A stretch of 64,000 bases of DNA from Allopontixanthobacter sediminis (lineage in GTDB: Bacteria > Pseudomonadota > Alphaproteobacteria > Sphingomonadales > Sphingomonadaceae): positions 196,501-260,500 of the forward strand of contig NZ_WTYL01000003.1 of assembly GCF_009828115.1 (NCBI RefSeq). The letters run 5' to 3'. The position numbers and the translations under genes are program-made. The notes under the pieces are model-generated. The model saw only the letters and a program-made list of their open reading frames with translations, had not been told where the DNA came from and did not search any database. This document shows, in pieces, positions 1,915 to 12,997 of this stretch. Numbering within the stretch: the stretch's first letter is position 1; the number at the start of each line of letters is the position of its first letter.

Positions 1915-4900
1915 TCAGAGCGCGAAGTTCACGTTAGCGAACCACGTACGGCCCCGGTAATCATAACCGGAATAGAGCGGTGCGTTACCGACCGTGTTGA
2001 AGCCGATTGCAGTGATTTCCGGCGGTGCGGTGTTGAACAGGTTACGAACACCAAAGGTGAATTCGAACTGGTCAACATCGACCTGGACCGAAGCAGAGTG
2101 CAGGAAGTAATCATCGGTTTCGAGCAGGTACTGGTCACGGAAAGCCTGAACCGTATCCGGGTCGGTTTCGCCGGTCAGTTCGTCGAAGGCGAAGAACTCG
2201 TAGGTCTTGTTCTTGTCACCATCCGTCCAATCGATCCCGTAACGGAACGTCACGTTGTCGATCGCATAGGTAACGTCGAAGCTACCCACCCAGTCAGGCT
2301 GCGTCACGATGCCATTGGCGTCGGTCAGGAACTCTTCCGGGAACAGACGGGTCGACTGCTCGGTGTACTTCGTGACGTTCGCATTCAGTACGAAACGTCC
2401 GTCGAACAGATCACGTGCGTAACGGGCGTTGAATTCATAACCCTTCACGATGTCTTCCGACAGGTTCACGAAGCTGCTGATCACCGTCAGACGCTGGTTG
2501 GCGTCACGGGTAACGAAGCGGCAGAAACCGGCATTCGGATCGAAGTTCACATCAGAGTAGCAACGGTTCAGGATGGTCCCGCCCGCGAGATCTGATACGC
2601 CGTTGTCAACCTTGATGTCGAAGTAATCGAGTGACAGCGAAACGGTACCGATCGAAGCTGGCAGCGGTGGGCTGACAACTGCGCCAACGGTCCAGTTCTT
2701 AGAGGTTTCCGCCGACAGGCCTGCTTCGGCACCGCCGACCCGGAAGACGCTGATTCCGCTGGTTTGCGTAAAGCCAACAGGCAGACCGATCGAGGCGCAG
2801 TTAGCCGCAATGATCTGCTGGTTGGGCGATTGCGCGCCAGGAGCAGGAAGATCGTCGCAAGGGTCGCTACCGGAACCAAGGAAGCCACTGGTGGCACCAA
2901 GGAACTGCTCAGCCAAGGCCGGAGCACGGTAGGAGGTGCCGTAGCTGCCGCGAAGGGCGAAACCACGAATTGGCTCCCACTCGCCGCCGATCTTGTACGT
3001 GGTATCGGAACCATACGATGCATAATCCGTGTACCGGGCCGACGCGTTGAGGTTCAGGCGGTAGAAGAACGGTACATCGGCCAGGATCGGCACGAAGACT
3101 TCGCCGAAGACTTCCTTGACGTTGTCGTTGCCGACCGTCGGCGTGCCGGCAGTGAGACCGAACAGGTTGCCGTTGATCGAGTTGGCATCCGGCTGGTCGT
3201 TGATGCTCTGCTTGCGGTATTCAGCACCAAGAGCAAGCTGAACATCGCCGCCGGGCATGGCGAAGATCGGACCATCGATGTTGAAGGCGAAGGTCGTTTC
3301 ACGGAACTGCGTCTCACCGATTGTGTTGACCAAGATGTAATCCTTGAAATCCTGCGGAAGGATCCCCCCGATTACGTCTGCACTAAGAGCCGGTGCTGCC
3401 ACGCAGTTGGGATTGATACCCTGAGATGCGCAGCTGAACGAACCGTCTGTGTTCTGCACGACGTCGAGCGAAGCTGCCAGACGGTCGGTGAGGAACGATT
3501 CGATTTCGTAGGTACCATCGTTCCACGACTTGCCGACATAGGCATCGTAACGCCAACCTTCGAGGAAGAAGTCGCCGCGAAGGCCTGCGCCTGCGCGGAC
3601 GTAGTCAACCTGTTGGGCGGAATCCGTGAGACCGAAGCCGATGAAGCCACGGGCCGCAACAGTCCGACCGTTCGAGGTGGGGTTGGCAGCAAGGAAGACA
3701 CCATTACGCAGGTTCGTCGGAAGCAACGGACTGCCGGTGACATAATCGAGCGACAGCTGACGGTACAGCGGCGAGGCCGAGTTCCGACGCGTGCCGAGTA
3801 GTTCGCCGTAAAGTTCGGCGTTGCCGAGCGTTCCGAGGTCGTAGCTTGCGGACAGATAGCCGGTGTAGATTTCGGCTTGGGTAATCAGCGGTTCTTCTTC
3901 CTGAGCCGGGTCAAGGGTATCGCGGCTGTAGAAATCGACACCGAGATAGCCTGGGAACGGACCAGTGGTCTGGCCGGGCGCTGGAACGAAACGGTTGAAA
4001 CGTCCTACGGCGCCGGTCGTACGGCTCACGGCATCGCGAGTTGGGGCGCCAAGGGTGTTGATTGTCACGCCGCCATTGTCCAGCGTGAAGCAGCCTGTGC
4101 CGTCGAAACCGACGCCATCAGCGGAGCCGAATTCGGAACCTTCCCCATCAAGGAAGCCGCCAATCGGGCAATCGAAGAATGGCACGTCGTTGCGGGCCAG
4201 CTTGTTGCGCTTGCGGTATTCAACCGAGCCCACGATGCTGAGACGGTCCGTCTGGAAACCGAACGATGCCGCAACGCGGGTATCGATACCGGCACCCACT
4301 TCGGGAACGTTGGTCTGAGCTTCGATCTGGAAACCACGAAGCTGCTGGTCGGTGATGATGTTGACAACACCGGCGACTGCGTCCGAACCGTAAACGGACG
4401 AAGCGCCCGCTTTCAGGACTTCGATGCGGTCGACGATTGCGGTCGGCAGGACGTTAAGGTCGGCTGCGAGAACCGAACCACGCGTACCGCCCGGAGCAAG
4501 CCGGCGACCATTCAGAAGAATGAGCGTACGTGAAGGGCCGAGGCCGCGAAGGCCGAGAGTATTGGCACCGGTGCCGCCGTCGGTTACAAAACCGCCGAAG
4601 AAGTTGTTGATCTGGCCGGAACCCTGGGTCACCGCATTGCTCTGCAACGCGTCAGTCGCGCTGTTGAAGCCTGCCTGGGTGATTTCTTCCGAGGTGATCA
4701 CGGTGATTGGTTCGGCGGTCGTGAATTCGTCACGACGGATACGCGTGCCGGTAACGACAATAGCGCCGGCGACCGGAGCTTCTTCGGTTACCGTTACTGG
4801 TGCTTCGTCATCGGCATCCTGCGCATAGGCGGGCGACGCGAAGGTAGCCAGTGTTACCGCTGCAAGGCCTGCGCCTGCGAACAGGCGTCCCTTGCCAACG

Positions 4901-4926
4901 TTCAAGTTGGTGAGAGTATTTTTCAT
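1915..4926 (-). CDS. TonB-dependent outer-membrane receptor
   Basis: A 1003-residue TonB-dependent receptor that would import a substrate across the outer membrane using TonB energy. The start is set at the ATG of MKNTLTNLN because a signal peptide ending SPAYAQ follows directly and a GGGGGA lies upstream. An upstream in-frame ATG would only add 14 residues ahead of the signal. The plug domain begins near residue 58 with VVTGTRIRR and PITVITSEEI, and contains typical LRGLGPSRTLILLNGRR and SSVYGSDAVAGVVNIIT segments. The C-terminal barrel ends in an aromatic-rich strand (WFANVNFAL). Family and length match the large receptors common in sphingomonads. The substrate cannot be read from the sequence. 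It is related to the receptor at 9827-12997. Confidence 0.93.
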   Translation of the reverse strand: MKNTLTNLNVGKGRLFAGAGLAAVTLATFASPAYAQDADDEAPVTVTEEAPVAGAIVVTGTRIRRDEFTTAEPITVITSEEITQAGFNSATDALQSNAVTQGSGQINNFFGGFVTDGGTGANTLGLRGLGPSRTLILLNGRRLAPGGTRGSVLAADLNVLPTAIVDRIEVLKAGASSVYGSDAVAGVVNIITDQQLRGFQIEAQTNVPEVGAGIDTRVAASFGFQTDRLSIVGSVEYRKRNKLARNDVPFFDCPIGGFLDGEGSEFGSADGVGFDGTGCFTLDNGGVTINTLGAPTRDAVSRTTGAVGRFNRFVPAPGQTTGPFPGYLGVDFYSRDTLDPAQEEEPLITQAEIYTGYLSASYDLGTLGNAELYGELLGTRRNSASPLYRQLSLDYVTGSPLLPTNLRNGVFLAANPTSNGRTVAARGFIGFGLTDSAQQVDYVRAGAGLRGDFFLEGWRYDAYVGKSWNDGTYEIESFLTDRLAASLDVVQNTDGSFSCASQGINPNCVAAPALSADVIGGILPQDFKDYILVNTIGETQFRETTFAFNIDGPIFAMPGGDVQLALGAEYRKQSINDQPDANSINGNLFGLTAGTPTVGNDNVKEVFGEVFVPILADVPFFYRLNLNASARYTDYASYGSDTTYKIGGEWEPIRGFALRGSYGTSYRAPALAEQFLGATSGFLGSGSDPCDDLPAPGAQSPNQQIIAANCASIGLPVGFTQTSGISVFRVGGAEAGLSAETSKNWTVGAVVSPPLPASIGTVSLSLDYFDIKVDNGVSDLAGGTILNRCYSDVNFDPNAGFCRFVTRDANQRLTVISSFVNLSEDIVKGYEFNARYARDLFDGRFVLNANVTKYTEQSTRLFPEEFLTDANGIVTQPDWVGSFDVTYAIDNVTFRYGIDWTDGDKNKTYEFFAFDELTGETDPDTVQAFRDQYLLETDDYFLHSASVQVDVDQFEFTFGVRNLFNTAPPEITAIGFNTVGNAPLYSGYDYRGRTWFANVNFAL

Positions 4927-5230
4927 AGTAGATCCAGTCCCCCTGAGGATGGCCGGAAAACCCGGCATCTAGGATAAAAGTCGAACAAACAGGTTCAGCG
5001 ACACGGGGCCGTGCTGAATCCGCTCTGCCGAGGGATGGGGCACAGGGGGACTAGTCGCAAATGAAATCAAACCGCAACATTGACTTTAAGGTGTCGCTGT
5101 TGCGCTGCAGCAACAGTCACAACGGAGCACCACTTTGTCGATAATTTTCGCAATCTAAGGAGTTCGCGAACGCTGTCCGGCGATGTGCCGAACTTGGGAC
5201 CACCCGTCTGCAACGCGCCGTCTGGCCTGA
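4927..5230. promoter_or_regulatory. Upstream region of the TonB receptor
   Basis: No gene is seen in these 304 bases. The stretch holds two dyads. One is TTCAGC...GCTGAA around 4993-5017, with an ACGG/CCGT inner stem, inside the likely leader of the receptor mRNA. The other is CTGTTGC / GCAACAG at 5097-5116, which contains TGCGCTGCAGCA. A closely similar 12-mer lies upstream of the second receptor. I infer a regulator site, but no regulator is identified. Confidence 0.4.
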
Positions 5231-5797
5231 TCAGCGAATGCGCCGGCCCTTCACGCCTAGCTGGTCGTTGACCCTGATGAAGTAACTGCCAAGAGCCGCC
5301 TTCCGGAATTCCACCGGCTGTCCCGGCTCAGGATCGAGCAAGCGCCTGGGTGCTTCATCGATCTGCCACAAGGCACCTTCAGCAGTCTGGATGACCCATC
5401 CTTGGCGGGTCCTGGTGGCTGATGTGATAGTGCTTTGGAGGACTTCCAGTTCCTCTGTGTCGCTTTCGTCGCGCTTTTTAAAGATGCCGAGGTCGGGAAC
5501 CGAGAGCCCGAAAAACTTGCGGCGTGTTTCCCGCACGTCGGCGCGGTCCACGACCTGAAGATCGCCTTCTTCGTTCGCCTTGAGCATGCGCGAGACTGCG
5601 CTGTCGAAGCAGGCGAGCCGCGCCGAATCGGCCGCCTCTGCCTGGCAGGATTTAAGCAAATCGAGATATTCGACATTCTCCCCGCCCTGGGTCGCGGCGG
5701 CATCTTGCGCGGCTGCAGGCGGGGACACAGCAGCCAGGGTCGTGAGCGCGAAACCAAGGGTGAGGGCATTCACGGGCCGAATTCGCATCAATTTCAT
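5231..5797 (-). CDS. Exported hypothetical protein with a C-x(n)-ARLACFD motif
   Basis: A 188-residue protein with an N-terminal signal peptide (hydrophobic core about residues 10-25, ending PAAAQ), so probably periplasmic. After the signal comes a short segment with two cysteines, SCQAEAADSARLACFD. This type of short segment recurs in many proteobacterial exported proteins of unknown role. A central charged linker with KKRDESDTEE follows. The rest, with TRTRQGWVIQTAEGALWQI, looks like a small beta-rich domain. The start is supported by AGGA seven bases upstream of the ATG. I do not recognise a specific function. It lies on the same strand as the receptor, 300 bases ahead of it. Confidence 0.75.
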   Translation of the reverse strand: MKLMRIRPVNALTLGFALTTLAAVSPPAAAQDAAATQGGENVEYLDLLKSCQAEAADSARLACFDSAVSRMLKANEEGDLQVVDRADVRETRRKFFGLSVPDLGIFKKRDESDTEELEVLQSTITSATRTRQGWVIQTAEGALWQIDEAPRRLLDPEPGQPVEFRKAALGSYFIRVNDQLGVKGRRIR

Positions 5798-6023
5798 GGA
5801 ACTATCCTGTCCTGGTTTGCCGGGGAAGATGGCGCGGAACCTTCACGGTTCTCGATTTGCCGGATTTCAGGCAGTTGCCCCAATTCTGAGGTTTCTTCAA
5901 TCCTTGGCCGTTGTTCAATCTGCGTTGATAATGCGCGAGGGACCCAGGATCCCTTGTTTATCTTTGACTGATATCTGACCCGGTGGCAAAAGTCGGCATT
6001 CAGTCATCGCGTGGGGATATTGT

Positions 6024-6299
6024 ATGAGTTTTTCAGGTCTTGCCTCAGTTCTGATCATTGCGGCCGCTTCCGCCAATCCGGCGGCGGCCACTCCGCAACC
6101 ACCAAGCCAGCCAGCCACTGCCGAAGCTGCGCCTGCCGAAGCGAAGCCCGAAAAGATGATCTGCCACCAAGACAAGGTCATCGGTTCCCGGGTCAGCGCT
6201 AAAAAGGTCTGCAAGACCGCATCGCAGTGGGCGGCGGAAAAGCAGGATGCGCGTGAAGCAACCGAAAAGGTGCAGTCCGCCCGGTGGAAATCGGAATAG
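6024..6299 (+). CDS. Small exported hypothetical protein
   Basis: A 91-residue protein preceded by GGGGA at good spacing. The first 20 or so residues are hydrophobic (a possible signal peptide), followed by a Pro/Ala/Glu-rich linker to about residue 45. The conserved-looking end carries two cysteines (MICHQDKVIGSRVSAKKVC) and then an amphipathic charged helix (TASQWAAEKQDAREATEKVQ). The C-x(n)-GSR-x(n)-K-x-C pattern recalls a small periplasmic family I have seen in sphingomonads. No function is assigned. It is transcribed away from the gene at 5231-5797. Confidence 0.7.
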   Translation: MSFSGLASVLIIAAASANPAAATPQPPSQPATAEAAPAEAKPEKMICHQDKVIGSRVSAKKVCKTASQWAAEKQDAREATEKVQSARWKSE

Positions 6300-6329
6300 G
6301 TCTACGGCAACTATCGCAAAGCCGACGGT

Positions 6330-8213
6330 TTATTCGGTTTCATAGCCCATTTTTTCGGCCCATGGCCGCAGGATTGGCATTACCGGTGACAAGTGATCGG
6401 CATAGCGGCGCCAACGGTAACGTGCGCGCGAGTAAAGTTCTTCGCCGATCTGCGAATAGCTGGCCGTACGGACCCGGCCGCGCGTCCGGGCCGTTGCGGT
6501 ATGATCGAGCAATTGGTCGTCCCAGTCGAGATCCAGCCATTCGAGCAACGGCGAAAGTTCCGTTTGCGGGCCGACCACCAGTCGTTCGTAACGCACCCGG
6601 TGAACGTCAACCGGGAAGAGTTGCAGGCTGCATTCCCATGCCGAAAAGACCGTATCATAGGTCAGTGCAGCTTCTTGCAATGAGGTGAAACTGCGCATGG
6701 CGAAATTCATCTGGAAATTCGCCATGAAACAGCTGAACACGACATCGTAGGGATGGCGTTCCGCCATGATGATCTTCGCGTTGGGGAACAGCCGGTGGAT
6801 GAAGGGAATACGGTCCATGTTCAGGGGGTGCTTGTCCACCAGCCAGCGGGTGTCGTCCCAACCGTACTCCCGCGCGAATTCGAAATAAGCTGCGCGAAGT
6901 TCGCCGATCCGCCCGGGCGTGAGAGCGGCTATATCGTCTTCCCCGACCAGACGGCGAGTACGCGCTGTCATCGGACGTTCTTCAAGTACCGACAGCCCCG
7001 GCTGACCCATCAGCATCGTATCGAGCAGGGTTGTGCCGGAGCGGGGAAAACCGACCAGGAACACAGGATCGCGGGGTTCCTGCGGTACGTCGACATCGTT
7101 CCAGCCTTGCGCCCACGAATCCGTCCAGCCCGACATCGTTTCCTGCAGTTGTTCGCGGTAGGTCAAGCCCGCGGCAGGCGGCGTTGCCGCCAAGGCTTCT
7201 TCGTTCATGCGGGTGAACGCGGAAAACGCTGCATCTGCATCGCCAAGGCGGTCGGCAATCCCGCCGACAAGATGGAAGCGTCGCATCGGATGGATTGATT
7301 CGGGGATCTTTTCCGCGAACGCTGCCGCGTCTTCGAAGCGGTCCTGGCGGCGTGCGAGCCAGGCGGAAAGGAAGGCGGTCTCGGCGCCCATTTTCCGATC
7401 TTCCACCCGCTCGACCAGGTTTGCCAGATCGTCGACCCGGTTAAGGCTTTCGTAGATCACTCCAAGTTCGATGTAGCCGTCGCTGTTGTCACCCGGCAGC
7501 GCGATTGCTTCCTCCAACCGGGCGATCGCCGCTTCGGGCTCGTCAAGGCGGGCGTGGGTAATGCCCAATTCGATAAGGACACGCTGGTTGTCCGGCGCGA
7601 TCCGGTGTGCATCGAGCAGCGCTGTGAGACGGGGCCGGTATCGCTCGGCTGTGTTCAGGACGTCAGCCAGGTTCAAATAGATCGAAACCTCCGACGGAGC
7701 TATCGAGATCGCGCGCTCGAACGCCTCGATTGCTCCGTCATGGTCGCCGGTCCTCGCGAGGATATTTCCAAGGTTGTTCCAACTGGCCAGATCGTCCGGG
7801 TCCGCAGCAATCGCCCTGCGGTAGGCCGCTGCCGCCGCTTCGAGGTCATTTGCTTGCTGGCGGATGTAGCCGTCAATTCGCGCCAGGTCAGGGTGGGCCG
7901 CACCATCGGCTATCCGCAGGGCGTCTTCGGCCCGGCCCGTTTCCAGCAGCGCTCGTGCAAGATTGACGCGGCTGGGGTGGTCGGCCGGATTGATCGCAAT
8001 CAAGGCCTCCAGATGCGGGATTGCCCGGGCCGGTAAACCTAGGCGAAGCGCTGCAAGGCTTGCCACCGCGTGATAGGGCGCACGGTCCGCTGCCGAAGCT
8101 GCACCGGCCTCAGCGATTTCGAGCGCACCGGAGTTATCGGCCATGCTTAGCCGTTCCATCGCGGCGATCAATTGCCGGGGCGGCTGGTTCAATGTGCTCG
8201 TGGAATCCGTCAT
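6330..8213 (-). CDS. TPR-repeat sulfotransferase family protein
   Basis: A 627-residue two-part protein. Residues about 10-330 are tetratricopeptide repeats (for example ASWNNLGNILARTGDHDGAI). From about residue 381 a sulfotransferase domain begins with the PAPS 5'-phosphosulfate loop VGFPRSGTTLLDTML, followed by LVDKHPLNMDRIPFI and NAKIIMAERHPYDVVFS, which would contribute to binding the 3'-phosphate. The arrangement matches bacterial TPR proteins with a tyrosylprotein-sulfotransferase-like domain, which would move sulfate from PAPS to a protein or small molecule. No signal peptide is seen. The start overlaps the stop of the preceding oxygenase gene by four bases, so the two are translationally coupled and probably act together. 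The substrate is unknown. Confidence 0.88.
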   Translation of the reverse strand: MTDSTSTLNQPPRQLIAAMERLSMADNSGALEIAEAGAASAADRAPYHAVASLAALRLGLPARAIPHLEALIAINPADHPSRVNLARALLETGRAEDALRIADGAAHPDLARIDGYIRQQANDLEAAAAAYRRAIAADPDDLASWNNLGNILARTGDHDGAIEAFERAISIAPSEVSIYLNLADVLNTAERYRPRLTALLDAHRIAPDNQRVLIELGITHARLDEPEAAIARLEEAIALPGDNSDGYIELGVIYESLNRVDDLANLVERVEDRKMGAETAFLSAWLARRQDRFEDAAAFAEKIPESIHPMRRFHLVGGIADRLGDADAAFSAFTRMNEEALAATPPAAGLTYREQLQETMSGWTDSWAQGWNDVDVPQEPRDPVFLVGFPRSGTTLLDTMLMGQPGLSVLEERPMTARTRRLVGEDDIAALTPGRIGELRAAYFEFAREYGWDDTRWLVDKHPLNMDRIPFIHRLFPNAKIIMAERHPYDVVFSCFMANFQMNFAMRSFTSLQEAALTYDTVFSAWECSLQLFPVDVHRVRYERLVVGPQTELSPLLEWLDLDWDDQLLDHTATARTRGRVRTASYSQIGEELYSRARYRWRRYADHLSPVMPILRPWAEKMGYETE

Positions 8214-9739
8214 TCAGGTAAACTCTGTTTGGGCCGGGCGATATCGAACGCGATGGTCAGGCGTTCTCCCGATGAAAAGGGACGCGTACCATGCCACATG
8301 GTCGACGGAAATAGGACAAGCTTGCCCGGCGCGGGTTCGATCAATTCGATAGGTTTCAGATCCGGCACCAGTTCGCGGCACTCTCCCAACGATAGCCAGC
8401 CCGCCGTGTCTTTCCCCGATGCGGAGCGGCCCACACTTTCCGGCAGCGCGATATATAATGCGGAACTGATCCACCCGTGGCTATGGACGTGGTCACTATG
8501 GTAGCCCGCTCCGAACAGGCGAACCGACCATGATCCCGCGACACGTTGTGGTTTCCGTTCGGTGATCAAAGTGGGGTGGCCGTTACGGGCAGGCGGAAAC
8601 TGCGCGACATGTGTCCTGACCGTGTCCAGTATCGTCTGCCTCAGCGGGCGGATCAATTCGTCATCGCGAAGCAGCAGGTTTCCGTCCGTCTGGGTGCCGC
8701 CGCGTACCGATTGGTCAAGCGGAGCTGCGGACGCGAAATGGAGCGACCGCAAATGTTCGGCGAGCGCGGCCCAATCGGCGACGGAAGCAGAAAGGTCGTA
8801 TGTCCGGACCAACTCCTTGTCACCTTCCAGCCAGGCGTGGCGTTGATCGCTGGTAAGTCGCCACACCAGGGATATGTAAGGCCAGAGCTGATTTTGATGG
8901 TCAGCCGGCATCCACTGTTCGAGGAGCCCTGCGGCGTCGTCGATCCTGCCGGCCCGGATCATATGACGTGCACGAAACGAAACGGCGTTGATGTCGGGCG
9001 GGGGCGGGACGGACGCAAACAGGCCTTCCGCGCGAAGGTGATCGCCGCTTTCGGAAGCCACATGCGCGGCGATATCCTGCGACCAGGCCTCGTCGCCGAT
9101 CTGTGCAGCGGCGGATCGTATCGCTGCTTCGGCCCCGGATAAGTTGCGCGCTTCGAGCAGGGTGTAAACTCGCAATTCGTGCAGCGGCCGATGCATTGGA
9201 AAGCGTTGGAGCGCCTGCTCGATCGATCTTAGCGAATCCCGCCCGCATTGGCCGGCAAGCCGCGCTAGCGAGCGATGACCGTCGATCCATTGCGGGTTAT
9301 CTACCAGCACGCCCGCCATGTATTCTGCCGCGGCCCCAGCCTGCCCCTCCTGCGTCAATGCCGCTGTCCGGCCCAGTATCGCCGAAGCGTCGTTGGGGGC
9401 AAGCTGGATAGCCTTGTCGAACAGGGATACACTCGAATGCCCTGCCTCCAACGCGGCGCGAGCATGCGAATGGGCGATTAGCGGGTCGTGAGGGGCCAGG
9501 CGGGCGGCTGCTGCAAAAGCGCCGAGCGCAAGACGGCTATCGCCGGAAGCGCGGGCTGCAAGTCCGACCAGCTGCTGCATGCGGGGATCATCCGGGAATT
9601 TTCGTGCGGCAGCGATGGCAGAGGGCAGCAGGATCTCCGCAAAATCTTCGCGTAGCAGGCGGATGCCAAGTTCGAATGCCTTGGCAGGATCGCCAATCGG
9701 AAAATCACGGACTAAGGCGCGCGCCTGATCGTGGTTCAT
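8210..9739 (-). CDS. TPR protein with putative 2OG-Fe(II) oxygenase domain
   Basis: About 509 residues. An upstream in-frame TTG exists, but the ATG of MNHDQARAL is preferred, with GAGG ahead of it. Residues about 10-300 are degenerate tetratricopeptide repeats. The C-terminal part carries SVRGGTQTDGNLL and then a double-stranded beta-helix pattern: GYHSDHVHSHGWISSALYI for the first iron ligands, and KLVLFPSTMWHGTRPF and ERLTIAFD for the distal histidine and the 2-oxoglutarate-binding arginine. This matches the putative 2OG-Fe(II) oxygenase family seen next to TPR proteins. The likely reaction is hydroxylation of an unknown protein or metabolite. It sits between a TonB receptor gene and a TPR sulfotransferase gene, overlapping the latter by four bases. 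Confidence 0.87.
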   Translation of the reverse strand: MNHDQARALVRDFPIGDPAKAFELGIRLLREDFAEILLPSAIAAARKFPDDPRMQQLVGLAARASGDSRLALGAFAAAARLAPHDPLIAHSHARAALEAGHSSVSLFDKAIQLAPNDASAILGRTAALTQEGQAGAAAEYMAGVLVDNPQWIDGHRSLARLAGQCGRDSLRSIEQALQRFPMHRPLHELRVYTLLEARNLSGAEAAIRSAAAQIGDEAWSQDIAAHVASESGDHLRAEGLFASVPPPPDINAVSFRARHMIRAGRIDDAAGLLEQWMPADHQNQLWPYISLVWRLTSDQRHAWLEGDKELVRTYDLSASVADWAALAEHLRSLHFASAAPLDQSVRGGTQTDGNLLLRDDELIRPLRQTILDTVRTHVAQFPPARNGHPTLITERKPQRVAGSWSVRLFGAGYHSDHVHSHGWISSALYIALPESVGRSASGKDTAGWLSLGECRELVPDLKPIELIEPAPGKLVLFPSTMWHGTRPFSSGERLTIAFDIARPKQSLPE

Positions 9740-9780
9740 CGCAACCAATCCTCGACAGGGGTGTCCTGCACAAACAGAAA

Positions 9781-9802
9781 CGGCGGGCCAAATGGCCCGC
9801 CG
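9781..9802 (-). terminator. Hairpin between receptor and oxygenase genes, possible partial terminator
   Basis: A perfect 9-bp stem (CGGCGGGCC / GGCCCGCCG) with a 4-base loop lies in the 87-base gap between the receptor stop and the oxygenase start. Read on the minus strand it is followed by TTTCTGTTTG. This could attenuate transcription, so that the two TPR genes are made in lower amounts than the receptor. Confidence 0.7.
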
Positions 9803-9826
9803 TCTCCTTTTTCATTCGGGTAACGC

Positions 9827-12800
9827 TTAGAAATCGAGCGTCACACCAGCGTAGATATACCGTCCGAGCGCATCATAAACCTGCGCGAACACGTTTCCGT
9901 TACAGAAACCGGCAGGGCAGGACTGCGAACCGGTGGTTGGCGGTGCCTTGTCGAACACGTTGTTCGCGCCAAGACGGAAGTCGAAATTGTCGCCAACTTC
10001 CCAGTTGAAGGTGAGATCGAAGTAGCTGATCGAATCGAAACCAGCGTTACCGGGACGGGCAATGCCGCCTGGAGCCGGGCCGCTGGCAGCGGTGCTTCCG
10101 AGGTTGGTATTGTCTTCGAGAGCGTCGAGAGTGACGTTACCGAAATACCTCCAACGAACCGATGCACCCATCCCGCTTGGCAGGTCGAAGCCCACGCGGG
10201 CCGTGTGACGCCATTCAGGGGTCGGTGTACCGCAGGTGTTGCCGTACAGACCAACGCAGTCATAGGTCTGGTCCTGGCCGGGGACGGTTACCCCGGTATC
10301 AAGCACCAATTCGTCCAGCCACGTACCGACGAAACTCAGGCTCAGGCGGCCTGCGTTGCCGACCTGGGTCCGGTAGCTGGCGTTGACGTCGACACCCGAG
10401 GTCGAGAGACCACCGATGTTCTGCTGCAGGTTGGTCACGAAACCGCCGGAAGAACGCCACAGCGAACCTGACGGGTCGCGGTTTACCAGCGAACAGAATT
10501 CCGGATCGGCCGTTGCGGTACACGCTGCGACGATCGTATCTGCGCCAATTCCCTGGATCGCATCTTCAATCTTGATGTTGAAGTAGTCGACGCTGAGAGC
10601 GAGGCCGGGGACGAAGGTTGGCGTAAGCACTGCACCGACAGTGTAGGTGTCGGCGGTTTCAGGCAGCAGGTTCGGGTTACCGCCGATCAGGCCGTTGTAC
10701 TGATCCGCAGGGTTCGGAGCGACCGTCTGGCCAACCGAAAGACCCTGAGCAAGACAGCCCGTGTCAGCAGCCGTGATCGCGAAGCCCGAGCATGGATCGG
10801 TCGAACCATCGAGCGCTACACGCTGCGGAGCGAACAGATCCTGGACTGTCGGTGCACGAACAGCACGGTTGTAACCACCGCGGAGACGGATGTCAGGGAT
10901 CGGGGCGAATTCGCCTTCGATCTTGTAGGTGTCAGTTGTGGCACCCGTGCTGTAATCCGAATAGCGGTAGCCGCCGGTGATGCTGAAGTCATAAACCCAG
11001 CTATTGCGAGCGATCGGCACGTTAATTTCGGTGAAGAATTCCTTCACGTCGAACGAACCCGATACCGGCAGGGTTGGCGCACCCTGACCAGCGAGATCGC
11101 CGGTCTGGAACGCGGTGTCGGAACTGAATTCCAGCTTTTCCTTGCGGTATTCAGCACCGAACACGACGCCTACGCCGTCATCCGCCCAAGGCGACTTGAA
11201 GCCGTACTGGCCCAGCGCACCCGAGACATAACCCGAAATGACTTGCTCGGTCACAATCCCGCGCGAGAAGCCCGGAGTGGAGAGATAGGCAATCGATTCA
11301 GGCGAAGGTGTAGTCGTGCCAGGTGAGAAGATATCCCATGGCACGCAGTTTGGATCGGTTCCGTCCAGCGCCGAGCGGCAGACAGGGTTGCCGTTAACAT
11401 CGTTCACCACGTCAAGCGCACGATTGATCCGGGTGACCGAGAAGTCATTCAGATAGGTCTGTGCGAAGTTGGTACGACCGTACTGGTAATAGGTATCATA
11501 CGACCATACCGGGCTGAGATCGCCCTTGACGCCGAGTACGGCGCGGTAGCTGGTGTGCTGAAGATCGTCCTGACGCGGACCACCTTCGACGTTCCGGCGC
11601 AGGACTTGCGCGAAACCGCGGTTATAGGTTGCACCAGTCGTCGGATCGATGAAATCGAACGGCGTGGTCCCGAGCAGAGGTTCTCCAAGGCCGCGGTCGA
11701 TACGGGCCTGGTTTTCAGCAGCAGCGTTACCGACTACGAAGAACGCATCACCCGGAGCCGGGCTGACGAGAAGGTTTTCGTCATCGCAGATAAGAGCCAG
11801 CTGCGAAGCACCCAGCAGCGGGTTGTCGCAGTTGAGCGACAGCGAGTTGCCGAAGTCACCCGATGGAGCGATCTGGGCGACCGTGCGGTCGTCCATGAAC
11901 ATGAATTCCATGTACGGCTTGATCGCGTCGGAGATTTCGTAATCCGCGAAGACGCCGGCCGTATAACGTTCGTCAGGACGCTGGAAGTAGTTCGTCGGCG
12001 CGAAGTTGAACGGAGTGAAACCAGGCGCAATGCCGCGGTTTGGAGCGAACTGATAGGTCAGCGAAGTGAAGTTGGCGGTCCGTGGATCGTCGCTGTCGTA
12101 TGCAAACAGTGTACCGGTTGGCGAAGTGGCCGAGCCACCGCAGCTGTAGAGCTGGCCGTCCGCATCGAACTGCGCCTTGGTCCGGCCAGAAAGTGCGCAA
12201 GCCGAATAGTCACGGCTTGCCTGCACGACCGGGTTGATCTTGCGATAGCCGACATAGGCACTTACCCGGCCGCGGCCGTCATCAAAGCTGGAACCGAACG
12301 CGAGCGTGGCGTCGAAAGTTCCGCCATCCGTCGACATCCCGCGGGGATAGCCAAATCCGCGCGCATCGAGCGGATCGGTGTAGGCGCTGTTGTTACGGTT
12401 GTCATGATTGTAGACCGAATACTGGGTGTCGAGCTTGAAGCCTTCGAAATCGGTATCCAGCACGAAGTTGACCACACCGGCCACGGCGTCCGCACCATAA
12501 ACCGACGAAGCACCGCCGGTCAGCACGTCGACGCGTTCGATCATTGCGGCCGGGATCACGTTGATGTCGGCTGCAGAGGTCGTTGGATCGCCTGGTACCA
12601 AGCGGCGGCCATTGACGAGAACCAGCGTCCGCTCGGAACCGAGGCCGCGAAGGTTAAGTGTTGCGGTACCGGTCGAACCGTTGGAGACATTGGAACCCTG
12701 CGCGGCAAATACCTGCGGCAGCGAGTTCACCAGATCTTCAACTCGGGTCGTGCCGGTCTGGGTGATTTCTTCGGCTGAAACCACAGTGATCGGGCTTGCC

Positions 12801-12997
12801 GATTCAAGGTTCGCCTGACGGATACGAGTGCCGGTAACAACAATCGGGTCGCCGACTTCTGTCTGGACACCGGTTGCAGACGTCACGCCAACATTGGTAT
12901 CATCGTCGGTTGTCTGACCAAACGCCGGGGCGCTGATCATCGCGATACCGAGAGCTAGCGGAGCAACGCCAGCCTTGAGTGAGATGGATTTTTTCAT
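9827..12997 (-). CDS. TonB-dependent outer-membrane receptor
   Basis: A 1056-residue receptor with a signal peptide (MKKSISLKAG..., cleaved after SAPAFG) and the ATG placed just after AAGGGGACC. The plug starts near residue 50 (DPIVVTGTRIRQ, PITVVSAEEITQ) and includes LRGLGSERTLVLVNGRR and SSVYGADAVAGVVNFVLD. The barrel contains GGYNRAVRAPTVQDLF and ends YIYAGVTLDF with a terminal aromatic, as needed for BAM insertion. It is a paralogue of the receptor at 1915-4926. The two TPR genes for an oxygenase and a sulfotransferase follow on the same strand, suggesting that the three handle one substrate or one surface modification. The ligand is not readable. Confidence 0.93.
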   Translation of the reverse strand: MKKSISLKAGVAPLALGIAMISAPAFGQTTDDDTNVGVTSATGVQTEVGDPIVVTGTRIRQANLESASPITVVSAEEITQTGTTRVEDLVNSLPQVFAAQGSNVSNGSTGTATLNLRGLGSERTLVLVNGRRLVPGDPTTSAADINVIPAAMIERVDVLTGGASSVYGADAVAGVVNFVLDTDFEGFKLDTQYSVYNHDNRNNSAYTDPLDARGFGYPRGMSTDGGTFDATLAFGSSFDDGRGRVSAYVGYRKINPVVQASRDYSACALSGRTKAQFDADGQLYSCGGSATSPTGTLFAYDSDDPRTANFTSLTYQFAPNRGIAPGFTPFNFAPTNYFQRPDERYTAGVFADYEISDAIKPYMEFMFMDDRTVAQIAPSGDFGNSLSLNCDNPLLGASQLALICDDENLLVSPAPGDAFFVVGNAAAENQARIDRGLGEPLLGTTPFDFIDPTTGATYNRGFAQVLRRNVEGGPRQDDLQHTSYRAVLGVKGDLSPVWSYDTYYQYGRTNFAQTYLNDFSVTRINRALDVVNDVNGNPVCRSALDGTDPNCVPWDIFSPGTTTPSPESIAYLSTPGFSRGIVTEQVISGYVSGALGQYGFKSPWADDGVGVVFGAEYRKEKLEFSSDTAFQTGDLAGQGAPTLPVSGSFDVKEFFTEINVPIARNSWVYDFSITGGYRYSDYSTGATTDTYKIEGEFAPIPDIRLRGGYNRAVRAPTVQDLFAPQRVALDGSTDPCSGFAITAADTGCLAQGLSVGQTVAPNPADQYNGLIGGNPNLLPETADTYTVGAVLTPTFVPGLALSVDYFNIKIEDAIQGIGADTIVAACTATADPEFCSLVNRDPSGSLWRSSGGFVTNLQQNIGGLSTSGVDVNASYRTQVGNAGRLSLSFVGTWLDELVLDTGVTVPGQDQTYDCVGLYGNTCGTPTPEWRHTARVGFDLPSGMGASVRWRYFGNVTLDALEDNTNLGSTAASGPAPGGIARPGNAGFDSISYFDLTFNWEVGDNFDFRLGANNVFDKAPPTTGSQSCPAGFCNGNVFAQVYDALGRYIYAGVTLDF

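Follow-up and report, generated by a model that had tools for sequence, protein, structure and literature searches.

A three-gene operon of Allopontixanthobacter sediminis, an alphaproteobacterium of the Sphingomonadales, encodes a TonB-dependent receptor (TBDR), a tetratricopeptide repeat (TPR) protein ending in a 2-oxoglutarate (2OG)-Fe(II) oxygenase domain, and a TPR protein ending in a sulfotransferase domain. The operon lies in a stretch of 64,000 nucleotides, referred to here as the window (RefSeq assembly GCF_009828115.1, contig NZ_WTYL01000003.1, positions 196,501 to 260,500 of the forward strand), and unprefixed coordinates are positions in the window (Table 1). An initial annotation, prepared from the DNA letters and their open reading frames (ORFs), had placed the receptor and the two TPR enzymes in this order on one strand with a four-base overlap between the enzyme genes; the ORFs and Pfam matches bear out the order, and the overlap is an ATGA at 8210-8213, in which the start of the sulfotransferase gene lies over the stop of the oxygenase gene. 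The association of receptor and enzymes is real and widespread, was not found described, and is a variant of the known pairing of a TBDR with an oxygenase; its function is predicted here from genes and modeled folds.

The receptor carries a signal-like N-terminal segment and neither enzyme has an obvious one, as judged by eye; both enzymes are presumably cytoplasmic. The oxygenase matches PF13759 with 67.7 bits (cut-off 27), its TPR matches comprising one family that passes its cut-off and others that do not, and the sulfotransferase matches PF13469 with 117 bits, together with many TPR matches. The oxygenase ORF opens with a TTG at 9748 (9748-8210, minus strand, 512 amino acids), and the 509-residue form in Table 1 is the probable protein because the alignment of homologues begins with the ATG at 9739. 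The source genome of 3.16 Mb contains one PF13759 match, five PF13469 matches, and 32 TBDR plug domains, and it encodes an adenosine-5′-phosphosulfate kinase, which makes a source of 3′-phosphoadenosine-5′-phosphosulfate (PAPS) likely. Other sulfotransferases of this genome were considered as copies of the operon and rejected, the strong matches L001 and L003 being without a TPR region or an oxygenase neighbor (by eye, ~3.7 kb each); this check took in L001 and L003 and left out L004 and L005.

Table 1. Features of the receptor-oxygenase-sulfotransferase operon, in window positions.
Feature	Position	Strand	Basis
TBDR, 1056 aa, plug and barrel	9827-12997	-	ORF call; Pfam PF07715 (86.7 bits) and PF00593 (102.8)
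Terminator-like 10-bp GC hairpin between TBDR and oxygenase gene	9780-9803		
TPR and 2OG-Fe(II) oxygenase (PF13759), probably 509 aa from ATG 9739	8210-9739	-	ORF, Pfam, homologue alignment
PF13759 catalytic domain, residues 406-502 (numbered from TTG)	8243-8533	-	Pfam
H420-x-H422, first part of predicted iron site	8483-8491	-	Invariant in 33 and 57 aligned sequences
H486, second part of predicted iron site	8291-8293	-	Same alignments
TPR and sulfotransferase (PF13469), 627 aa	6330-8213	-	ORF call, Pfam, alignments
Sulfotransferase catalytic domain, residues 383-566	6516-7067	-	Pfam; TPST1 is best sequence and structure match
PAPS 5′ loop of sulfotransferase	7026-7052	-	Within catalytic domain
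Predicted catalytic Glu412 of sulfotransferase	6978-6980	-	Within catalytic domain

The genome search that the initial annotation had suggested finds the three-gene set conserved with this receptor clade. Three separate searches over the same 196 genomes of the order, with four TBDR candidates scored per genome, returned oxygenase matches in 140 genomes, sulfotransferase matches in 192 (any relative being counted), and TBDR matches at 1e-100 in 80. Of the TBDR matches in one piece, all 17 with an identity of 51% or more, the window included, are located at an oxygenase or sulfotransferase locus; the oxygenase lies within 4 kb in 16 of them and the TPR-sulfotransferase within 4 kb in 14 (that of L045 is distant and oppositely oriented). 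Genome G157 (L098) has a close receptor adjoined by the sulfotransferase, and no oxygenase match is listed for that genome.

Neighborhoods were counted in two partially overlapping sets, i.e., 80 named loci, which are the best 80 of 589 confirmed stretches in the genome collection, and 80 fetched loci (L038-L097 and L138-L157), which are a part of the better-scoring oxygenase matches. TBDR fragments of up to 250 amino acids were excluded from the 4-kb neighbor counts, related genomes are non-independent samples, and genes were called as the longest ORFs (ATG, GTG, or TTG), by which starts, gaps, and overlaps outside the window are approximate. These loci also supplied the sequences for the family models (OX, ST, TB, ASPH, c13, c20, c42, MT, HAL, and TB2), in some cases very few. 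The oxygenase has a TBDR within 4 kb in 71 of the 80 named loci, all nine misses being on contigs cut within 4 kb, and in 67 of the 80 fetched loci, the 13 misses of which comprise four on cut sequence, L152 with an Oar-like TonB outer-membrane protein (Pfam), and eight in which none was detected. A random gene lies within 4 kb of a TBDR at an estimated ~12%, as calculated from the 32 plug-domain TBDRs in 3.16 Mb, and the clustering of receptor and enzymes is therefore far above chance.

The oxygenase is accompanied within 4 kb by a TPR-sulfotransferase in 48 named and 19 fetched loci, by a TPR-AspH protein (TPR with PF05118) in 35 and 11, and by a tryptophan halogenase in 13 and 2, respectively, and a TBDR is present with no TPR-sulfotransferase within 4 kb in 27 named and 49 fetched loci. 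Two gene orders are common, TBDR-oxygenase-sulfotransferase and TBDR-sulfotransferase-AspH-oxygenase, and divergent arrangements also occur. Among gene clusters of ORFs of at least 100 amino acids, those present in more than 20 of the 80 named loci are the oxygenase, the TBDR, the TPR-sulfotransferase, the TPR-AspH protein, and two of the syntenic chromosomal background, and no other cluster is equally frequent; clusters in 17 or fewer loci are only partly identified, and ORFs below 100 amino acids were not clustered, so that a short precursor could be missed.

The enzymes are co-inherited with one receptor clade. For loci whose TBDR is at least 40% identical, counted after removal of near-identical entries, the Mantel r of pairwise distances is 0.81 between TBDR and oxygenase (n = 69), 0.81 between TBDR and sulfotransferase (n = 52), and 0.78 between oxygenase and sulfotransferase (n = 52). 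When clpB stands in for the genome (n = 41), r is 0.45 for TBDR and clpB and 0.52 for oxygenase and clpB, and the partial correlation of TBDR and oxygenase is 0.68; the permutation values should not be read at face value, as the genomes are related. At the class level, 27 of 289 genomes have an oxygenase match at 1e-30, two of these in the window's own family. Five genomes outside the order have a best match of at least 199 bits (G199, G334, G368, G463, and G466), with a plug domain near in four (~4.3 kb in G334), and the weaker class-level matches (up to 141 bits) mostly cover the C-terminal part only. Oxygenase relatives are also present in the very small genomes G217, G348, and G445 (0.8-1.0 Mb), which have one or two plug domains, and distant members of the oxygenase family may therefore have other substrates.

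The initial annotation had reported both catalytic motifs, which stands for the sulfotransferase and needs qualification for the oxygenase, whose motif is present and not clearly classical. Within the oxygenase family, H420, H422, H486, and R496 are invariant in alignments of 33 and of 57 sequences, and H417 is nearly invariant. The triplet H417-x-D419 (HSD), which reads like a classical HxD, occurs in the window and the six nearest rows, and elsewhere position 419 is N, V, A, or others. Because D419 varies beyond the nearest relatives, the predicted family-wide iron motif is HxH...H rather than HxD, and a classical HxD is possible for the closest relatives. The same histidines are aligned in the PF13759 structure 2rg4. 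In AspH, the iron is bound by two histidines only (679 and 725), and AspH variants H679A and H725A are named in the titles of matched PDB entries.

The AlphaFold2 model of the oxygenase (mean pLDDT, 95.9) has an AspH-like architecture, with a predicted TPR superhelix N-terminal to the 2OG oxygenase domain. A Foldseek comparison of the whole model with the PDB places human AspH with its TPR domain at ranks 1-7 (best E, 1.9e-9), with low TM-scores of 0.27-0.34 because the TPR and catalytic parts are arranged differently. The catalytic part has the double-stranded beta-helix fold and, with VIA-align, is closest to the uncharacterized PF13759 structures 2rg4 (Z 18.2, rmsd 3.9, 179 aligned) and 3bvc, followed by the Pseudomonas putida prolyl-4-hydroxylase (P4H) 4j25 (Z 15.3), the P4H-EF-Tu complex (14.9), PHD2 (14.8), and OGFOD1 (14.6), with many repeat proteins interspersed. 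AspH is absent from the best 50 VIA-align rows, though Foldseek puts it first, and at E 0.001 the oxygenase matches neither PF05118, the AspH family, nor the YbiX/PiuC (PKHD) family.

Among 42 sulfotransferase sequences, R391, S392, G393, T395, E412, D460, and R486 do not vary, and conservation is at least 90% for K461 and S494; we take these residues, except D460, to be those of the PAPS-binding loop, the Arg and Ser that bind the 3′-phosphate, and the catalytic Glu and Lys. The sequence alignment with human TPST1 spans the whole sulfotransferase domain (E 6.8e-11), and the conserved residues line up. For the AlphaFold2 model (mean pLDDT, 93.6), VIA-align rows 1-7 are all TPST, the best being human TPST1 with a gastrin peptide (5wrj_C; Z 22.1, rmsd 2.9, 244 aligned, 22% identity), and below them are TPR matches (Z 19.7), the curacin sulfotransferase (19.5), and the olefin-synthase sulfotransferase (19.2). 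The TPR part resembles O-GlcNAc transferase in structure comparison. Because the nearest characterized structures are AspH, P4H, PHD2, OGFOD1, TPST, and O-GlcNAc transferase, both enzymes look like protein modifiers with a superhelix that would hold the substrate, although a fold does not prove a substrate; the protein recognition that the initial annotation had ascribed to the TPRs fits these structures.

A hairpin is located between the TBDR and the first enzyme gene in 71 of 74 cases. Under a control rule that requires a T-rich tail, a hairpin follows 71 of 75 enzyme-linked TBDRs, 109 of 118 other TBDRs, and 18 of 251 ordinary same-strand gaps. A role as an operon-specific regulator, i.e., a stoichiometry device, was rejected; because the 109 TBDRs are not followed by an enzyme and have a hairpin as well, the terminator-like hairpin is a general feature of TBDR genes in the fetched loci.

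Several neighboring genes are recorded as observations in their own right. Between clpB and the cassette, positions 1915-5797 (-) encode a second, different TBDR of 1017 amino acids and a 188-amino-acid protein with no Pfam match, and this place is syntenic across several genomes, whereas the cassette differs. A small secreted-looking ORF of 91 amino acids at 6024-6299 (+) is convergent with the sulfotransferase gene and resembles, by eye, a small cluster adjoining the cassette in L038, L039, L041, and L045. ORFs down to 25 amino acids were listed for 5760-6380 alone; the 6024-6299 ORF was the only candidate for a small peptide substrate encoded in the operon, and it was rejected in this role as it is not widely shared. 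More distant receptors have other companions: a TIR and TPR protein at L118:5729-8008 (+) is convergent with an enzyme-free relative of the receptor, and receptors of ~33% identity (L122, L124, L129, L132, L133, L135, and L137) adjoin the family c20 of 310-370 amino acids, sometimes together with a TPR-AspH protein. By eye, c20 is P-loop sulfotransferase-like, with no Pfam or NCBIfam match.

Members of the oxygenase family are found, too, next to a PF04820 tryptophan halogenase and a TBDR of a different family, as at L218:4670-8971. Near halogenase-type loci (representatives L204, L217, L218, L219, and L230) are genes for GH32, GH68, GH36, GH97, alpha-galactosidase, galactokinase-like, ROK-kinase, and MFS proteins; since these sugar-utilization genes adjoin the loci, we infer that the ligands there may be sucrose- or raffinose-type sugars. 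The source genome itself has eight strong tryptophan-halogenase matches in four clusters, each beside a TBDR (L246-L249 for clusters C1, C2, and C4); one cluster has GH13 and GH97 genes, another GH3, a third the order TBDR-SapC-Cupin_8-halogenase, and a fourth four halogenases with one Cupin_8 protein. At L282 of this genome, a gene picked by a small, two-sequence YbiX/PiuC model stands beside another TBDR, and about 6 of the 32 TBDRs in the genome have such companion enzymes. The halogenases could not be named as protein modifiers, the NCBIfam scores being far too low (QhpG, 37.7 bits with a cut-off of 240; LodB, 22.7 bits with a cut-off of 400). A PF05118 search for a TPR-AspH protein in the source genome gave no match and gave none in the control genomes either, so that absence is not demonstrated.

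We tentatively favor the reading, at a probability of about 0.4, that the operon encodes an outer-membrane receptor together with two cytoplasmic enzymes that modify it before export. The TPR superhelices of both enzymes would hold the unfolded receptor chain in the cytoplasm, ahead of Sec export; one receptor side chain would be hydroxylated by the oxygenase, and a tyrosine or another hydroxyl of the receptor would receive a sulfate from the sulfotransferase. The two marks would be independent and not necessarily on the same residue, and the modified receptor, once exported, would interact with TonB or its ligand differently from the unmodified form. The main reason to favor the receptor as the substrate comes from the halogenase loci, since sugars cannot be brominated and a predicted sugar ligand beside a halogenase is therefore hard to reconcile with modification of the ligand. 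Co-inheritance of the receptor with hydroxylase- and sulfotransferase-like enzymes suggests that bacteria may finish such receptors chemically before installing them. A broader version, somewhat unlikely as it stands, is that TonB receptors are finished in general by cytoplasmic enzymes guided to one receptor clade, i.e., TPR-oxygenase, TPR-AspH, and TPR-TPST proteins, joined at sister loci by JmjC-like hydroxylases and tryptophan halogenases, which would hydroxylate, sulfate, or halogenate side chains prior to export; it would also account for the oxygenases beside Fiu, PiuA, and CciT.

Several observations weigh against modification of the receptor. In the receptors, columns separating sulfotransferase-linked from other sequences were listed and tyrosines were scored for acidic surroundings, with phylogeny uncontrolled; neither the alignment columns nor the tyrosine surroundings identified a modified residue, and no acidic-context tyrosine is specific to the sulfotransferase-linked receptors (57 linked, 23 not linked). 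The most acidic conserved tyrosine, Y353, is present in 100% of the 57 and 96% of the 23, and Y504, present in 88% and 9%, respectively, may merely track phylogeny. The eight fetched oxygenase loci with no detected TBDR within 4 kb are on uncut sequence. Among the receptors of lower identity, L118, L119, L125, L127, and L130 (39-46%) lack all of these enzymes in the surrounding 4 kb, while many others are accompanied by them. Furthermore, 6 of 25 class-level genomes with oxygenase relatives are without any plug domain; the domain pair as such therefore does not need receptors, and the receptor link is a property of this oxygenase subfamily rather than of PF13759 as a whole. We know of no description of an outer-membrane barrel protein that is sulfated ahead of its export, and receptor modification is not among the models for the Caulobacter oxygenase CciO in passages of its report (PMC12004947).

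Among the alternatives, it is unlikely that the enzymes build or alter the ligand of the receptor, for instance a siderophore-like hydroxylated and sulfated small molecule or peptide, perhaps kept at the surface, which is then taken up again. A model of the same kind is listed for CciT-CciO in the Caulobacter report (PMC12004947) and has been proposed for PiuA-PiuC (PMC12004943), natural-product pathways contain both 2OG oxygenases and sulfotransferases, the curacin and olefin-synthase enzymes come next after TPST among the sulfotransferases, and close co-inheritance with one receptor clade is also compatible with it. However, the clusters present in more than 20 of the 80 named loci (rarer ones being partly identified) include no gene for making a scaffold, for export, or for import across the inner membrane, TPST resembles the sulfotransferase domain more closely than the natural-product enzymes do, and the predicted ligands of the annotated halogenase loci are sugars. 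The initial annotation had likewise proposed the ligand or a surface polymer as the substrate, which the present data do not favor, as among the clusters of ORFs of at least 100 amino acids none for a polymer or a transporter is as frequent as the cassette. It appears improbable that the enzymes act on a distinct secreted peptide or protein whose gene lies elsewhere and which the receptor would sense or import. Such a substrate would suit the TPST-like fold and the TPRs, and the secreted-looking ORF at 6024-6299 adjoins the sulfotransferase gene; this ORF is however on the opposite strand, its cluster is found in 4 of the first 80 loci (counted for ORFs of at least 100 amino acids, shorter relatives being uncounted), and no other small gene is among the frequent clusters at that length. 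RaxST, which modifies RaxX, is a precedent for a separate secreted peptide substrate.

The remaining two explanations concern the operon itself. That the genes are neighbors for regulatory reasons alone, with unrelated substrates, is quite improbable: the conserved order of clpB, a TBDR, a small gene, the cassette, and thiolase in several genomes could hold hitchhikers, but the link to the receptor clade persists across chromosomal places and across all the gene orders described above, including the divergent ones. The obligatory sequence put forward in the initial annotation, in which the oxygenase would make a hydroxyl and the sulfotransferase would sulfate that very hydroxyl on one substrate, is very improbable in spite of the overlapping genes and the covariation of the two enzymes, because either enzyme occurs alone with such receptors, as in the 49 fetched and 27 named loci with oxygenase and TBDR and no TPR-sulfotransferase within 4 kb and, conversely, in G157. 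If, as favored here, the receptor is the substrate, bacteria would have a new level of protein modification, carried by proteins that are among the most exposed of the cell, and it would affect the uptake of nutrients as well as the entry of phages and siderophore drugs.

No description of a receptor operon with a TPR-oxygenase and a TPR-sulfotransferase was found in searches of open-access papers; the main text of a 2024 review of TonB-dependent transporters (PMC11658791) is without six terms for such enzymes or modification, and the word sulfotransferase is absent from the main text of the CciT-CciO paper (PMC12004947). The operon nonetheless has relatives among known systems. Human AspH likewise joins a TPR superhelix to a 2OG oxygenase, although its catalytic family is PF05118 and that of the window oxygenase is PF13759. 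TPST1 and TPST2 share the catalytic fold and the PAPS-binding and catalytic residues with the window sulfotransferase, whereas the latter is bacterial, apparently cytoplasmic, and preceded by an O-GlcNAc transferase-like TPR superhelix. The TBDR-SapC-Cupin_8-tryptophan halogenase loci of the source genome, where this full order is found in one of four TBDR-halogenase loci, similarly place a receptor beside putative hydroxylating and aromatic-modifying enzymes, but with other receptor and enzyme families, and are tied to the cassette only through the shared oxygenase family in the 13 named loci with a halogenase. The closest parallel is formed by CciT-CciO in Caulobacter, Fiu-YbiX in Escherichia coli, and PiuA-PiuC in Pseudomonas, in which a TBDR and a 2OG oxygenase are also syntenic and co-inherited. 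Their oxygenases are of the YbiX/PiuC type, unlike the TPR-PF13759 oxygenase described here, which is accompanied by a TPR-sulfotransferase and often by a TPR-AspH protein; a YbiX/PiuC-family gene (NF003974) is nevertheless present in one such locus (L049:5925-6587), and a two-sequence model finds others. According to the Caulobacter report, CciT strictly and specifically needs the cytoplasmic CciO, CciT protein is still made in its absence, CciO is modeled as making a substrate, removing an inhibitor, or oxidizing a substrate, and the need of a particular outer-membrane receptor for a cytoplasmic oxygenase is stated as an open question (PMC12004947). The cassette narrows this question, as the enzymes here carry TPRs and are related to eukaryotic protein hydroxylases and to TPST, and the receptor is their most frequent companion gene.

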